Source: Clostridiales bacterium Firm_14 (GTDB lineage Bacteria; Bacillota; Clostridia; Saccharofermentanales; Saccharofermentanaceae). From it: a stretch of DNA of 64,000 nucleotides. The notes under the pieces were generated by a model. It was not told the DNA's origin and ran no database searches. It saw nothing but the letters and a program-made list of their open reading frames with translations. Below, in pieces: positions 55,947 to 64,000 of the stretch (positions are counted from its first letter, which is position 1; each line of letters opens with the position of its first letter). The stretch is taken from the NCBI GenBank assembly GCA_001604135.1, contig LVAT01000009.1, forward strand, positions 222,414-286,413, in the 5' to 3' direction. The position numbers were made by a program, and so were the translations under genes.

Positions 55947-57674
55947 ATGGCAAAGCAACCGGAAAATAACAGAGTCGATAAGACCCTGCGAAAGCTGTCT
56001 CTGGAAAAAGAGGCTCCTAAGGGTGTGTTCGTCCTGCTTGCAGTGCTTTTCGTATTCTCGATATTCTTAACATCAAGCATATCCCGATCCGAAGCCACGG
56101 CAGTTATATTCGGGATCCCCTTTGAGATCAAGTCATTTACGGGCATCTCTTCGATGCTCGGCAACATCTGCCTTATCTGCCTCGCGATGCTCTACAGAAA
56201 AACCGGCTACTTAACCGCGCTGGCACTCATCCTGCTGCAGTTCCCCCTGATGTTCATCAACATCTTCATCCGCAGTAACTACGGAAACATTCCGGGCTTG
56301 TTCAATAACATCCTGATAATCCTGGCCATCACGTTCATCTACTTCGGAAACAGGAAGATCCAGGCTTATCAGAATCACATCCGCGAACAGGCCGTAACGG
56401 ACAGGCTCACGGGGCTTCCCAACCGCTTCGCATGCAGCGAGCTTATGCAGGATCTCTTAAAGCGTTCGGAGAGATTCGCGATCGTATCAGTCGACCTCAA
56501 TGACTTCAAGAGCATCAACGATACCATGGGTCATGAGACGGGCGACCATGTGCTCAAGGCTGTTGCCGACAGATGGATGTCCCTGGCTAATTCGCTTAAG
56601 ACCGGCACCGTCGATTTCGTGGCAAGATCCACCGGCGACGAATTCCTTATCATAATCTCCGGTTACGGTTCCTTAGATGATATCGAGAGGACCATTACCG
56701 ACTATAAGACTGATCTAGAAAGAAAGATCACCATTGATGACTGCGATTACTATCTGTCCGCATGCTTCGGCTATGCCGTCTGTCCGGAAGACAGCGACGT
56801 CATTGACAATCTCTTTACGTTCTCCGATGCAGCTCTGCACGAGACAAAGAAGAAGGGCAGCGGCAGCAGGGTCATGAGATTTACGCCCGACGTATTCAGC
56901 ACGGAGGTCTCTTTGGAGATCGAGCGTAAGATCCGCTCCGCACTGACTGATAACAAGATCCTCTGCCATCTCCAGCCGCAGTACGACATGGATCATCATT
57001 TAAGAGGCTTTGAAGCTCTGGCGCGCCTGAAGGATGATAACGGCAAATTCATAAGCCCTGCAGACTTCATTCCGGTAGCCGAGAAAACGGGCCTGGTCGA
57101 CAGGATCGACATGCGTGTTTTCGAGCTGGCCGTACAGTTCATCGGCAACGTAACAGCTGAGACAGGTGCTGACATCACCATGAGCGTCAACGTATCCGTA
57201 AGGCATCTCATGAAGAATAACTTCATCGATGACATCAGGAGAGTCCTCAGAAACTACAACGTCTCACCTTCCATAATCGAGATCGAGATCACTGAATCCA
57301 TCATGATCGATTCCGCGGATAATGCGCTGCAGAGAATAGACGAGCTCAAGCAGCTCGGCTTTAAGGTCGCAATTGACGATTTCGGCACCGGCTATTCGTC
57401 CTTGAGCTACCTCAACAGCTTCCCGACGGACATGCTTAAGATCGACAAGTCATTTATCGACAACATGAGCCTCAACGAATCGTCCAAGCAGTATGTTGCC
57501 ATGATCATCTCGATCGGCCATACGCTTGACCTCAAGGTCATTTCGGAGGGTGTCGAATCTGATGATCAGGTAAATGTCCTGAAGTCCATCGGATGCGATT
57601 ACATTCAGGGTTACGTATGGGGCAAGCCGATGCCTCTTGAAGAAGCAAACAGACTTGTGGCTTCCCGCAAGTAA
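55947..57674 (+). CDS. Membrane GGDEF-EAL protein, likely c-di-GMP phosphodiesterase
   Basis: A 575-residue protein. Four to five helices (about residues 25-140) precede a GGDEF domain (about 150-310) and an EAL domain (about 320-570). The GGDEF motif reads STGDEF, with the first Gly lost, so cyclase activity is doubtful. The EAL domain has GFEALARL, NVSVRHL, EIEITES, DDFGTGYSSL, KIDKSFI and EGVES, the full metal and catalytic set, so phosphodiesterase activity is likely. AAGGGTGAG precedes the start. Confidence 0.93.
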   Translation: MAKQPENNRVDKTLRKLSLEKEAPKGVFVLLAVLFVFSIFLTSSISRSEATAVIFGIPFEIKSFTGISSMLGNICLICLAMLYRKTGYLTALALILLQFPLMFINIFIRSNYGNIPGLFNNILIILAITFIYFGNRKIQAYQNHIREQAVTDRLTGLPNRFACSELMQDLLKRSERFAIVSVDLNDFKSINDTMGHETGDHVLKAVADRWMSLANSLKTGTVDFVARSTGDEFLIIISGYGSLDDIERTITDYKTDLERKITIDDCDYYLSACFGYAVCPEDSDVIDNLFTFSDAALHETKKKGSGSRVMRFTPDVFSTEVSLEIERKIRSALTDNKILCHLQPQYDMDHHLRGFEALARLKDDNGKFISPADFIPVAEKTGLVDRIDMRVFELAVQFIGNVTAETGADITMSVNVSVRHLMKNNFIDDIRRVLRNYNVSPSIIEIEITESIMIDSADNALQRIDELKQLGFKVAIDDFGTGYSSLSYLNSFPTDMLKIDKSFIDNMSLNESSKQYVAMIISIGHTLDLKVISEGVESDDQVNVLKSIGCDYIQGYVWGKPMPLEEANRLVASRK

Positions 57675-58937: not shown

Positions 58938-58987
58938 CGAATGATATAATGAGCACAACCGGAATAAAGGATATTTTGGGGGTAAAT

Positions 58988-60853
58988 ATGAAAGCAAAAA
59001 GATTAATATCAGGTCTTCTTATCCTGTCGCTTACATTTGCAACGGCGTGCATAGATCAGGGCAGCGTCTTCGCGCCCATCCCCACACCGGACAGCAATGC
59101 GATGGCAGCTGCTCCTTCAGACTACTCTAATATGACTCCTGAAGAGATCTGCAAGACTCTGACATTGGAGCAGAAGGCCGCTCAGATGATGCAGCCGACG
59201 ATATATAACACGCTGCCCGGCGAAATGGAAATGACGGACTACGGCTCGATCCTCTCGAGAGTTGATAACTATCCGATGCCCACCGCGGAGGAGTGGAAAA
59301 AGACCGTCACGGAATATCAGACTTACGCTCTCCTGAACGCCGCTCCTATTCCGTTTATCTACGGCAACGACAGCGTCCACGGCGTTAACTTCGCAAACGG
59401 CTGCGTTATGTTCCCCCACAACATCAATATCGGCGCGGCTAACGATCCCAAGCTTACTGAAGAATACGGAAAGCTCGCAGGAAGCGATGTCGCAAATACG
59501 CGCATGATGCTTAATTTCGCACCCTGTGTAGCTACCGCGAACGATCCCAGATGGGGAAGGACTTATGAATCCTATTCCTCCGACAGCAAGATCGTAAAAG
59601 AACTTGCCGTAGCTTATACAAAGGGCCTTATGTCTGAAGGCGTCCTCGCCTGCCCCAAGCACTTCTTCGGAGACGGCATGACAGCTTTCGGAACCGGCGA
59701 GAGCACACCGCTCGACAGGGGCGATTCCAAGCTTACCGAAGAACAGATCAAGGATCAGCTCTCGATCTATCAGGCGCTTATAGATGAAGGCGTTATGGTC
59801 ATCATGCTCTCGCACTCTTCACTTAACGGAACGAAGATGCACGAGAATGAGAAATACATAAGCTATCTCAAAAAAGACATGGGATTTAAGGGCATCGTCC
59901 TCACGGACTGGGATTCGGTAATGAACTGTTCCGGTGCTGATTACAAGGAGAACGTTATCATCTGCGTAAATGCCGGAGTCGACATGCTCATGACCGAGAC
60001 CGACCATCCGGCTGCGATGAAATACATTATAGAGGGCGTAAATGAAGGCCGTATCTCCGAAGACCGCATTAACGACGCGGTTACAAGGATCTTAAGAGTT
60101 AAGAAGGAAACGGGGCTTTTCGATGACCCGTATCTCGAGAAAATAAAGCCTTCATACGAATTCGGAAGCAAGGAGTCTCATGAGGTTGCAAGAAAGCTTG
60201 CAGCTGAATCATTCGTGCCCCTTAAAGCCGGCAAGAACATGTATATAAAGCCCGGCATGAAGGTGCTCGTCACGGGTCCTGCAGCAGACAATGTTGGTGC
60301 TCTCTGCGGCGGCTGGACGAACTGGTGGCAGGGCGAATCAGACGTTAACTTCAGGAATCTGGGCTTTGAGGATAAGCACTTCAGAATGGAAGGCAGTTCC
60401 ATCGTTGAAGCGCTCAGCGAAGCAGCAAAAGAGATCGGCTTCGAGATCACAACGGATAAGACTCAGGTCGATTCCTGCGACATGATCCTTCTCTGCGTCG
60501 GCGAGAAGCCTTATGCGGAATGGTATGGAGATACAAATGACCTGTCACTTACAGGTTCTCTGGGCCTTCCCGGAAACAGCGATGCGATCCAGTTTGCAGC
60601 ACAGTCAGGCAAGCCTGTCGTTACGCTTATCGTGGCAGGCAGAAACGTGATAATTGACCAGTATCTTGACGAATGGGATTCCTGCATCATGCTGTATCTT
60701 CCCGGCACAGAAGGAGGAAACGCAGTATCAGACGTTCTGACAGGAAAAACAGGACTTACGGGAACGCTTCCCATGCCCTATTATTCCTCAACAGAACAGA
60801 TCGGTACCGGCAAATGCTGGCACGATGTAGGATGGAATGCTCTGAAGGGATAA
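58988..60853 (+). CDS. GH3 beta-glucosidase-like lipoprotein
   Basis: A 621-residue enzyme. The start at 58988 follows GGGGGT; the earlier ATG lies inside the TATAAT at 58945-58950. Lipobox FATAC makes it a surface lipoprotein. The GH3 TIM barrel (about residues 50-390) has GNDSVHG, the KHFFGDG block and VLTDWDSV, whose first Asp is the expected nucleophile. The C-terminal alpha/beta domain (about 410-615) includes VLVTGPAADNVGALCGGWTN. It would cleave beta-glucosides outside the cell, feeding the monosaccharide importer. Confidence 0.93.
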   Translation: MKAKRLISGLLILSLTFATACIDQGSVFAPIPTPDSNAMAAAPSDYSNMTPEEICKTLTLEQKAAQMMQPTIYNTLPGEMEMTDYGSILSRVDNYPMPTAEEWKKTVTEYQTYALLNAAPIPFIYGNDSVHGVNFANGCVMFPHNINIGAANDPKLTEEYGKLAGSDVANTRMMLNFAPCVATANDPRWGRTYESYSSDSKIVKELAVAYTKGLMSEGVLACPKHFFGDGMTAFGTGESTPLDRGDSKLTEEQIKDQLSIYQALIDEGVMVIMLSHSSLNGTKMHENEKYISYLKKDMGFKGIVLTDWDSVMNCSGADYKENVIICVNAGVDMLMTETDHPAAMKYIIEGVNEGRISEDRINDAVTRILRVKKETGLFDDPYLEKIKPSYEFGSKESHEVARKLAAESFVPLKAGKNMYIKPGMKVLVTGPAADNVGALCGGWTNWWQGESDVNFRNLGFEDKHFRMEGSSIVEALSEAAKEIGFEITTDKTQVDSCDMILLCVGEKPYAEWYGDTNDLSLTGSLGLPGNSDAIQFAAQSGKPVVTLIVAGRNVIIDQYLDEWDSCIMLYLPGTEGGNAVSDVLTGKTGLTGTLPMPYYSSTEQIGTGKCWHDVGWNALKG

Positions 60854-60970: not shown

Positions 60971-61105
60971 TTACTTCTTAGGTCTCTTAGGCTGATGAAA
61001 GAAATACGGACACCTGGGATAATCCGGATCAGTATTGGAACCTACCGCATTTTTCCTGGTTGCTCTTTCGACCTTTTCGAGAATCAATTTCTCAAGTTTT
61101 TTCAT
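60971..61105 (-). CDS. agrD: AgrD-like autoinducing peptide precursor
   Basis: A 44-codon gene. The N-terminus MKKLEKLILEKVERATRK is an amphipathic helix as in AgrD leaders. The core YPRCPYFF would form a thiolactone from Cys32 to Phe36, and the tail HQPKRPKK is the charged, Pro-containing recognition tail removed by AgrB. GAGG lies nine bases before the ATG, which overlaps the end of agrB by 14 bases. It is the pheromone gene of the agr locus. The exact N-terminal trimming of the peptide cannot be read from sequence. Confidence 0.88.
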   Translation of the reverse strand: MKKLEKLILEKVERATRKNAVGSNTDPDYPRCPYFFHQPKRPKK

Positions 61106-61682
61106 TTGCTGACACCTCGCCTTTAATGATTTTTACTGCTAACAGACTCAAGGCATTATAGATAATTCCGAGAGCTGAATAGTAGACAAAACGGTTACTC
61201 GAAAATATGAATAGAAGACATATAACTGCCGGTCCGATGACCAGGATCAACATGCGGGTTATCCTCTTATGGCGGATAAACACATCCTCAGGCAGATCCA
61301 GATTCGGGTCATGGATTGCTCCGATCACGAGAATTACAGCCATAGAGATAAACACGGCAATAAAGCAGACCGGAGGGTATTTGATAAGCCACCTTGTAGT
61401 CGGTATGGTGGACAGCGCTGACAATACAGATGCGATAAAGCATCCTATGCTTGTTTTACAGTGAATTCCGTCAGAAAAGCGCCTGATGACAACAAATACA
61501 ACAGTGAATACCGCTATCTCGAAAAAAGCTTTAAAGACCAGCGCAAATATGCCGATAAGGATCATCCCTATCGTTTTCTCCAACAATAATTGGATAGAGT
61601 ATGCGTAAAATCTGAGATCATCTTTCTTGATGATCTCATTTTTACACATTCGGTCTGCTATTAATGCAGATAAATATTCCAT
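61092..61682 (-). CDS. agrB: AgrB membrane endopeptidase
   Basis: A 196-residue membrane protein of the AgrB family with four to six helices. RRFSDGIHCKTSIGCF places the catalytic His and Cys seven residues apart, as in Staphylococcus AgrB (His77, Cys84). It cuts the AgrD tail and catalyses ring closure. GAGGGG lies 11 bases ahead of the ATG. It begins the agrBD operon and overlaps agrD. Confidence 0.92.
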   Translation of the reverse strand: MEYLSALIADRMCKNEIIKKDDLRFYAYSIQLLLEKTIGMILIGIFALVFKAFFEIAVFTVVFVVIRRFSDGIHCKTSIGCFIASVLSALSTIPTTRWLIKYPPVCFIAVFISMAVILVIGAIHDPNLDLPEDVFIRHKRITRMLILVIGPAVICLLFIFSSNRFVYYSALGIIYNALSLLAVKIIKGEVSANEKT

Positions 61683-61719
61683 CTCTTATTGTTCCCCTCA
61701 TTGCGACCATTGTGTATTG

Positions 61720-61800
61720 ATAATATAAAATGGCCGTTCAACAGGCAATAAAAAATCGAAAACTCAGGGATAAAGTAAAAAATCCAGGGATAAAGTAAAA
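61720..61800 (-). promoter_or_regulatory. agrBD promoter with 20-bp-spaced direct repeats
   Basis: The minus strand has TTGCCT (61748-61743), 17 bp and TATTAT (61725-61720). Upstream, CAGGGATAAAGTAAAA (plus-strand reading) occurs at 61765-61780 and 61785-61800, a period of exactly 20 bp. Two direct repeats about two helical turns apart, just above the -35, is the geometry of AgrA/LytTR sites. Confidence 0.65.
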
Positions 61801-61803
61801 TTA

Positions 61804-63084
61804 TCAGGCCAGAGGAAGGGTAATCGATATGTGGAAAATGCCTCCCTCAGTATCGATGAAACAGTTGCCTTTATTGGCTTCTACGGTGTTTTTGATGTTC
61901 GCGAGACCAAAACCGTGGTTTTTCTTGTCAGATTTTGTCGTTCCGAAGTCATAATCGGCCGGAATGTGACCCTTGTAGGTGTTCGTCGAGTCGATTATGA
62001 GAGTGTCAGAATCCTTGATGATCTTAAATACGATGCGCTTCTCATCACACTTCTGAACAGCTTCGATCGCATTGTCGAGAATGTTCGTAATTATCGTTAC
62101 GAGATCGCTGTCGCTTATCTTAATATCCTTCAGATTGTCAGCGATAAAGGGAATGATTATGCCCTTCTCTTTTGCTTCGAGATACTTGATGTTCAATACG
62201 GCATTGATAAGCGCGTTGCCGGTATCGATAATGTCAACGCTCTGAACCTCTTTTCCCAGCTGCTCTTCAATATACCGTATCTGCTCGTCGGTCTTGCCTT
62301 CGCGGGCAAGCATGAGCATAACGTTAAGGTGATTAATATAGTCATGTGAGCGGGCCTTCTGCTTTTCGCGCTCATCTGAAAGCGAACGGTACATCTGATT
62401 AAGGTGCTCTGTCTGCCCGAGCATTATTTCTTTCTCGTGGATCATATTCTCGCGCCTTACGACATTATCTATAAGCAGGAAAATAACAATGCTCATGATA
62501 AGCATTCCCGAAGCGAGGATAACCATGCCGGTGTATACATCATCAACCGCTTTTTTCCCGACAGAGAATGCAAGAACGAGAATGGCAATTATCGTAAACA
62601 GCGGATACAGCGCAAAGGTGAGCCAGCCCTTGATATCAAGATTGGTTAAAACGCCTTTTCTGAAGACAGTATTTATAACCATCACAATCAAGAACATCAC
62701 TATCTGGCATGAGAGATCTCCTATAAAAGATTCGTTGTTAGAGATTTGAAGCCAATCTTTTCCGGTCACACGCATCACGACCAGTAAACCTATCATTTGA
62801 AGAGACATCATTATTGCATTATATAAAAGGTTTGCGAGCAGACTCTTCTTAAATGAAACCTTGAAGATCAGCATCGTAAAGCCGATAGATAAAGCAATGA
62901 GAATACAGAATTTGGGTAACGGATTCACAAAGAAAACTGTCAGTACATTCAAGACATAAAGAAACACTATCAGAATGTAATCTAAGGGCTTTTCCGCTTT
63001 GCGCTTCAAGACGCTTTTTATGAACGCATAATATAATAATATGCTGGAAAGATTGGTTAAGACTGCCAGTTCTAAATTTGTCAT
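61804..63084 (-). CDS. agrC: AgrC-type sensor histidine kinase
   Basis: A 426-residue kinase with six to seven N-terminal membrane helices (to about residue 205), a coiled linker, a dimerisation region with RSHDYINHLNVM (phosphorylated His near 240) and a GHKL ATPase with NILDNAIEA and GFGLANIKNTV. This is the AgrC architecture. The start at 63084 overlaps the agrA stop (ATGA) with GGGGAAGG upstream. It should bind the processed AgrD peptide. Confidence 0.92.
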   Translation of the reverse strand: MTNLELAVLTNLSSILLYYAFIKSVLKRKAEKPLDYILIVFLYVLNVLTVFFVNPLPKFCILIALSIGFTMLIFKVSFKKSLLANLLYNAIMMSLQMIGLLVVMRVTGKDWLQISNNESFIGDLSCQIVMFLIVMVINTVFRKGVLTNLDIKGWLTFALYPLFTIIAILVLAFSVGKKAVDDVYTGMVILASGMLIMSIVIFLLIDNVVRRENMIHEKEIMLGQTEHLNQMYRSLSDEREKQKARSHDYINHLNVMLMLAREGKTDEQIRYIEEQLGKEVQSVDIIDTGNALINAVLNIKYLEAKEKGIIIPFIADNLKDIKISDSDLVTIITNILDNAIEAVQKCDEKRIVFKIIKDSDTLIIDSTNTYKGHIPADYDFGTTKSDKKNHGFGLANIKNTVEANKGNCFIDTEGGIFHISITLPLA

Positions 63085-63809
63085 GCGTTCCTTCCCCTGT
63101 AAAGCGTATGCGCACGGCAAACGTCACTGTATTTCTTCTGCGATACGGTGATCTGCTCGCCATTATCGAGAGTAACCAGATATCTGGTGACAGATGTGAT
63201 GTGGCGCAGATTTACCGTCTCGTTGGAGCTGACGGCTATAAAATCAAAAGGCTTCATCACTTCCGTAAGTTTCTTAAGTGTCTGCCGCATAATGTATGTT
63301 TCTTTCGAATCATTCGAAAGAACAAATGTCGTATAGTTACCGGTGGTCTTAAGATAAACAATGTCCTTTATCTTAAGCGTGCGTTTTCCGATCGAGAAAT
63401 CCATAGTGATCTCTTTGTCGAACAGATCCATGTTGGTCATGACGCAGTCGAGGCATTCGAAAAGATAATCCTTCAGATCATCCATGGTCTTCAGAATGAA
63501 TCTTACGGCACGTACATGATACCCGTCCGTGGAGTAATTCATGTGTGCAGACAGGAAAGCTATGTTGACCTTGTCGTTTTGCTGACGAATGCTTTTCGCT
63601 ACCGAAATTCCGTCAATCCCCTTCATCTCAACATCCAGAATGATCAGATCCGCCATCTCGATCAATACTTTATTCTCAAGCAGCTCCTCTCCCGAAGAAA
63701 AGCATTCAACACTGTAAGACATGCCCTTATTGGTGAAGTATTCTTCAAGATACTTCATCTCTAATTTCAGGAATCTGGCTTCGTCATCACAAAGAGCAAT
63801 CTTGATCAT
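63081..63809 (-). CDS. agrA: AgrA-type LytTR response regulator
   Basis: A 242-residue regulator with a receiver domain (CDDE near residue 7, phospho-acceptor in LIILDVEMKGIDG near 58) and a C-terminal LytTR DNA-binding domain (about 135-235, KIKDIVYLKTTGNYTTFVLS). It pairs with AgrC and should bind the direct repeats before agrBD. No clear ribosome binding site precedes its ATG. Confidence 0.92.
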   Translation of the reverse strand: MIKIALCDDEARFLKLEMKYLEEYFTNKGMSYSVECFSSGEELLENKVLIEMADLIILDVEMKGIDGISVAKSIRQQNDKVNIAFLSAHMNYSTDGYHVRAVRFILKTMDDLKDYLFECLDCVMTNMDLFDKEITMDFSIGKRTLKIKDIVYLKTTGNYTTFVLSNDSKETYIMRQTLKKLTEVMKPFDFIAVSSNETVNLRHITSVTRYLVTLDNGEQITVSQKKYSDVCRAHTLYRGRNA

Positions 63810-63942
63810 TAACTGCTAAACGGAAACGAATTACTGCTTACCGGGATAACACTATAGATTTGTTCTCAACAGTAACCCTACTCTCTCCCCATCATGAATC
63901 ATACCTTAATAATTCTTTGGTTAAAAGACTTGGCTTTTTATA

Positions 63943-64000
63943 TCAAAGCTTTTTGAGCTTTCGAAGTGCACCGCGAATGGCATCCGGACCCTGTCTGTCT
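63943..64000 (-). CDS. 3' end of an unidentified gene cut by the window edge
   Basis: On the minus strand a frame enters from the edge and ends at TGA 63945-63943, with the tail DRQGPDAIRGALRKLKKL. The composition looks protein-like, but it is too short to identify. Confidence 0.4.
   Translation of the reverse strand, partial: DRQGPDAIRGALRKLKKL

Follow-up and report, generated by a model that had tools for sequence, protein, structure and literature searches.

The agr locus and its predicted peptide

The window analysed here is a stretch of 64,000 nucleotides (nt) from Clostridiales bacterium Firm_14 (contig LVAT01000009.1, positions 222,414 to 286,413 of the forward strand), a genome of 45 contigs and 3.12 Mb that is 99% complete. 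Near the end of the window four genes lie on the minus strand in the order agrA, agrC, agrB and agrD (Table 1). The evidence supports a complete agr quorum-sensing locus of well-known type, and the tandem repeat that precedes both agr promoters of this genome is most likely the operator of AgrA. Below, G denotes a genome, L a fetched locus and C a contig of the window's own genome.

All four genes had been proposed in a first-pass annotation made from the letters alone, and the family models agree: because AgrB, AgrC and AgrA have Pfam domains and AgrD clears the TIGR04223 cutoff, the locus is beyond chance, and it is conserved in relatives. AgrA has both a receiver domain and a LytTR domain (Pfam), and its identity to the counterparts in 13 other agr loci ranges from 94 to 41%. 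In AgrC, residues 1-205 contain seven hydrophobic segments, and SHDYINHL at residues 246-253 is a box that we ascribe to an HPK10-type kinase. The two genes form the overlapping upstream pair that had been described: the preferred start of agrC, the ATG at 63084 with GGGGAAGG upstream, shares 4 nt (ATGA) with the stop of agrA. The TTG at 63120, which had been listed as the start of agrC, is less likely.

AgrB scores 111 bits against PF04647 (cutoff 23), has four hydrophobic segments and is the only match to itself in its genome; among PDB sequences it has no match at E <= 1. Its His/Cys pair, already pointed out in the first-pass annotation, holds up in the alignment, where H74, C75 and C81 are invariant in 11 sequences (the window protein and 10 relatives). 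We take the S. aureus counterpart to be the catalytic pair His77/Cys84, with the same seven-residue spacing. The 44-codon agrD does overlap the end of agrB, by 14 nt, and a family search with its product gives 22.3 bits against TIGR04223 (curated cutoff 19) over residues 31-44, with no Pfam match. Residues 1-18 are amphipathic, with a score equalled in 1% of 5000 shuffles. The staphylococcal equivalog models give 49.7 bits for AgrC (NF046015, cutoff 500) and 35.7 bits for AgrA (NF046049, cutoff 400), which is expected because the clade is distant.

Among the 85 genomes of the genus, the window's own included, AgrB has a match at E <= 1e-5 in 26 and none in 59. The 30 fetched loci contain 29 distinct AgrB places. 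At 20 of these a complete short open reading frame follows AgrB and closes with QPKRP and a few more residues; another three are cut by a contig edge (L007, L018 and L023), and six have no such frame by the rule of our script. Aligning the AgrDs in 19 rows (L022, identical to L021, was omitted), we find P30, C32 and QPKRP invariant, in the pattern Cys, four residues, (H/Y)QPKRP. The rings are, in order, CPYFF, CPYFF, CPYIF, CPYFL, CPSFL, CTFLI, CSFIL, CGFIL, CTFLF and CAFLF (rows 1-10), then CPVIL, CPIIL, CPMIL, CISLY, CWIIL, CVTIY, CISFY, CVTIY and CQFFY (rows 11-19). Given this constancy, a Cys32-Phe36 thiolactone with the ring CPYFF, as first proposed, is the natural prediction for the window AgrD. 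The peptide had also been called new, which stands in part: CPYFF was not found in the literature searched, but the same ring is encoded in G060, a different species of this genus, and C. difficile AgrD1 already represents the HQPK class. We also observe that G069 (L014/L030) and G034 (L017) each have AgrB divided between two frames, with a complete agrD downstream.

The two halves of AgrC differ in their conservation. In comparisons with 13 other loci, some of them over part of the length, identity to the window protein is 28-85% for residues 1-205 and 52-97% for the kinase half. Specifically, the sensor and kinase halves are 68% versus 97% identical in G009, and 44% versus 84-85% in G010 and G066. 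We infer from these comparisons the usual picture of a peptide and a receptor that diverge together.

A search with AgrB found 14 loci in named organisms, two of them weak (24-26% identity), and the named relatives are all metagenome-assembled genomes (MAGs). They are Ruminococcaceae bacterium RUG11004, RUG12602, RUG12748 and RUG13376; Saccharofermentans sp. Tb.RUG.504, Tb.RUG.80, RUI416 and RUI031; Clostridiales bacterium RGIG5968 and RGIG2731 from sheep and goat omasum; and two Mageeibacillus sp. The genus is thus probably Saccharofermentans of GTDB and, reading RUG as rumen, as we presume, the habitat would be the rumen.

Table 1. Features of the agr locus, the candidate operator and the candidate targets (aa, amino acids; ABC, ATP-binding cassette)
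Feature	Position	Strand	Description	Basis
agrA	63081..63809	-	LytTR response regulator, 242 aa	PF00072 + PF04397 (Pfam)
agrC	61804..63084	-	sensor histidine kinase of the membrane, 426 aa (start ATG 63084)	PF14501 GHKL
agrB	61092..61682	-	membrane endopeptidase, 196 aa, His74/Cys81	PF04647
agrD	60971..61105	-	44-aa autoinducer precursor; predicted ring CPYFF (32-36), tail HQPKRPKK	TIGR04223
Candidate AgrA operator	61765..61799	-	two TTTACTTTATCCCTG copies, 20-bp (base-pair) period	recurrence in genome and genus
agrBD promoter, -35	61743..61748	-	TTGCCT	16 nt past operator
agrBD promoter, -10	61720..61725	-	TATTAT	17-nt spacer
agrA leader, agrA-proximal part (whole ~370 nt, conserved)	63810..64000	-		predicted hairpins
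Candidate target	C8		117-aa secreted protein (L054:8155-8508), 699-aa membrane protein, ABC ATPase, signal peptidase I	
Candidate target	C9		132-aa secreted protein, 492-aa and 819-aa proteins	
Candidate target	C6		132-aa secreted protein, 491-aa lipoprotein	
Candidate target	C10		145-aa secreted lipoprotein-like protein, 722-aa and 401-aa proteins	
Candidate target	C9:206204		short presumed transcript (~165-nt structured RNA)	
Presumed ~165-nt RNA	L055:11287-11458 (own C9:206287-206458), L102:9595-9771, L113:6732-6907			operator-promoter, terminator

A tandem repeat upstream of the agr promoters

The gap between agrC and agrB holds TTTACTTTATCCCTG-GATTT-TTTACTTTATCCCTG (61799-61765), of the general form TTTACTTTATCCCTG-N5-TTTACTTTATCCCTG. 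Allowing at most three mismatches over the 30 fixed bases, a search finds seven sites in the own genome and 51 in the genus, in 14 of the 85 genomes; the reversed pattern, used as a control, finds none in either. In four other genera of the family, none of 30 genomes has a site. An explanation of the recurrence as a mobile repeat was rejected, since the flanks differ between sites.

The distance from the repeat to the promoter is fixed. Adding to the 51 sites three with four mismatches from the fetched loci gives a set of 54, many of which are orthologous and not independent events. In 49 of these a TTG starts exactly 16 bases past the repeat (the next best offset, of 8 to 25 tested, accounts for 5), and in the own genome it does so at all seven sites. 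At least 17 of the 54 sites are agr promoters (7 of agrA, 10 of agrB), and of the 10 loci whose agrB has the operator, seven have it in front of agrA too. If transcription starts about 35 bases past the -35 element, the centre of the proximal copy falls near -60. In S. aureus, too, the tandem repeats bound by AgrA ahead of P2 and P3 have their proximal copy near -60 (PMC4227749), and we count this fit in favour of an AgrA operator.

The sequence of the repeat also changes with the species. In distant agr loci of the genus it is altered, and two similar copies are still found about 20-21 bases apart, for example TAGACTATCCCAC in G003. G005, which has no canonical site, carries a changed half-site, TTTACATT, in front of agrB and at a second locus, where the TTG lies one base further on and so gives two mismatches to the search pattern. 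In G018, a G stands at position 9 of both half-sites in six of eight sites, the agrB promoter included, and in none of the 46 sites elsewhere.

Genes and a presumed small RNA behind the repeat

Apart from those at agrA and agrB, the own-genome sites precede four units with small secreted proteins and one presumed RNA (Table 1), which suggests that the signal may switch on the genes behind the recurring operator. Proteins are called secreted here from N-termini judged by eye and a crude rule rather than by a signal-peptide predictor. In the first two genes behind the 54 sites there are 15 such small proteins, in nine sequence clusters; the count is 17 minus two internal AgrB fragments, and the rule misses some, e.g., L055:6704-7102. 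In the C8 unit the ABC ATPase scores 270 bits against TIGR03608, the model of lactococcin-972-type exporters (cutoff 254.85). Of eight exporter ATPases in the regulons of other genomes, one exceeds this cutoff (L117 in G066, 266 bits), six fall below it, and one is not listed at E <= 1e-52. The 819-residue protein of C9 matches a solute-binding family (PF13416, 28.3 bits, cutoff 27), and its 492-residue neighbour stays below cutoff.

The small proteins are possibly new bacteriocin families. Since the four of the own genome match no family above cutoff, 'bacteriocin' is a guess. The 117-residue protein of C8 has no Lactococcin_972 match at E <= 0.1, and so does not qualify as a precursor of that family, and it has no match among PDB sequences at E <= 10; its single-sequence AlphaFold model is uninformative (mean predicted local distance difference test score 40). 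By eye, similar large lipoproteins of 720-830 residues recur in or beside the regulon, several with an N-terminal DSPWYDAE-like motif (L055:8703-11162, L057:6777-8945, a 772-residue frame upstream of the agrA promoter in L053, and L113, L119 and L121).

The promoter at C9:206204, about 78 kb from the agr locus on the same contig, is followed by some 165 bases and a strong terminator. The same arrangement, operator included, is kept in both G009 and G060, and no reading frame runs through all three sequences. The predicted fold has -59.2 kcal/mol (z -4.1), as low as in none of 200 shuffles. A covariance model run over the 85 genomes matches strongly only in these three, and its 12 further matches do not exceed 32.4 bits; covariation, with three sequences only, is not above that of shuffles (170 of 500 as high). 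No Rfam family matches at E <= 1. We regard this as a candidate for a new agr-controlled RNA, possibly an effector of the RNAIII kind, presumably transcribed from the operator-promoter.

The agrA promoter has its operator just past the window edge (C9:286643-286677, or 64230-64264 on the window scale). Between it and agrA, the leader (L053:7224-7590) shows long predicted hairpins with some compensatory changes; 7 of 59 pairs have changed on both sides among six species. Its only Rfam match is mir-153, at 22.3 bits where the gathering score is 54. The leader could be a 5' untranslated region or a separate RNA. On the other side of the locus, two genes convergent with agrD were named by eye as coding for a GGDEF-EAL-like protein (55947-57674) and a glycoside hydrolase 3-like secreted protein (58949-60853).

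The proposed circuit and its relation to known systems

The operator, the probable feedback and the candidate regulon go beyond the first-pass annotation. Taken with the locus, they lead us to read the system as a complete, self-activating agr quorum-sensing circuit controlling seven promoters, with a probability of roughly 0.78. AgrB would cut AgrD after Phe36 to yield the predicted thiolactone, and the exported and trimmed peptide would bind the variable membrane half of AgrC. Bound AgrC would phosphorylate AgrA, whose dimers, sitting on the tandem TTTACTTTATCCCTG repeats, would activate the adjacent promoter. The output of agrAC and agrBD would then rise, as would that of at least five other units, four of them encoding small secreted proteins with lipoproteins or exporters and one the ~165-nt RNA.

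The main rival, which we consider unlikely, accepts the agr locus as real and has another LytTR regulator bind the tandem repeat, the agr genes being just two of its targets. It is suggested by C. difficile, where RgaS-RgaR, a circuit with direct repeats whose key bases are G-51 and G-72, is uncoupled from AgrD1 (PMC10602386). Against it, agrA and agrC share a locus with agrBD, the operator stands in front of agrA itself in seven loci, and the presence of the operator tracks AgrA across the genus. Specifically, of the 21 genomes with an AgrA match 11 carry the operator, against 3 of the remaining 64 (Fisher 4e-6, for genomes that are not independent, counted by hand with a cutoff of E < 1e-40 chosen with the list in view). 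In G023, which has no AgrB match, the operator and AgrA are about 1.3 kb apart.

Several observations weigh against the circuit as proposed. The 10 other AgrA-bearing genomes have no operator at up to three mismatches, and G011, G072 and G045 have one with no close AgrA, which the rival would expect. For G011 the explanation may be MAG contamination or transfer: its operator contig (C17 of that genome, L105; 3.2 kb) is 91% identical to G060 over 2,922 bases, and the genome has no AgrB match. The site in G045 lacks the TTG, as do in all five of the 54 sites at the fixed offset. Three loci in which agrB has the operator (L062, L063 and L066) lack it at agrA even when four mismatches are allowed. 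The divergent operator of G003 occurs once in its genome, so that a wide regulon is no general feature. The lack of a family match above cutoff for the four small secreted proteins, noted above, also belongs here.

It is very improbable that the locus has decayed or fallen silent, with the agrD frame a relic. AgrB is unmatched in most of the genus and split in G069 and G034, as loss would predict, but here the four genes are open, agrD has kept its length and motif, and the agrB operator with its TTG is retained in nine other loci. Least probable of all is that the cyclic peptide of AgrB and AgrD is chiefly an antimicrobial or a cross-species inhibitor rather than a self-signal: the ring does vary among species, as expected for interference, but AgrC and AgrA are encoded next door, behind the same operator.

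A broader reading, to which we give somewhat less than even odds, is that species-specific agr peptides are the master switch for uncharacterised small secreted proteins, their exporters, partner lipoproteins and a new RNA in this rumen genus; species with the same ring (the window genome and G060) would then share a signal. We found no paper on agr quorum sensing in Saccharofermentans in the literature searched, and a term search of the available part of a Hungate bacteriocin survey (PMC13289728) found neither 'Saccharofermentans' nor 'autoinducing'. A review of rumen signalling records agrA/agrB in 199 rumen genomes and calls the evidence limited (PMC10838665). Five-membered thiolactones, from Listeria and other species, rearrange rapidly (PMC11297923).

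The locus is ordinary in kind. With S. aureus it presumably shares the AgrB His/Cys pair and the five-residue thiolactone ring, whereas the AgrD tail, which we take to be acidic in S. aureus, is HQPKRPKK here. The two systems also have the four components in common, and the candidate operator would place its proximal copy where S. aureus AgrA has one (PMC4227749). In contrast to agrBDCA of S. aureus, the genes here run A-C and then B-D, each pair with its own candidate operator, the operator sequence is different, small secreted proteins and exporters are the predicted outputs, and the candidate RNA lies far from the locus and outside Rfam.

The nearest published relative we have seen is AgrD1 of C. 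difficile, in which CPWII is followed by HQPK, so that the position of the ring and the HQPK are as in the window AgrD and the ring residues differ (PMC8534292). There RgaS-RgaR drives agrB1D1 and the small RNA SpoZ via direct repeats (PMC10602386), a likeness to the present genome in that agrBD and a candidate small RNA stand under one direct-repeat operator; the operators and RNAs are likened by description. In the window agrC and agrA belong to the locus, whereas in C. difficile the genes for kinase and regulator are non-contiguous and the two do not respond to AgrD1. Lactococcin 972 operons resemble the C8 unit in its TIGR03608 exporter ATPase and signal peptidase I, with a counterpart ATPase in G066, and differ from it in the small protein.

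The part worth following is the operator with its candidate regulon. From the operator one can name the promoters expected to respond to the signal, which makes the system testable in a group whose named relatives are MAGs only. The candidate secreted targets may mediate competition, and operator, candidate targets and candidate signal are here given together.

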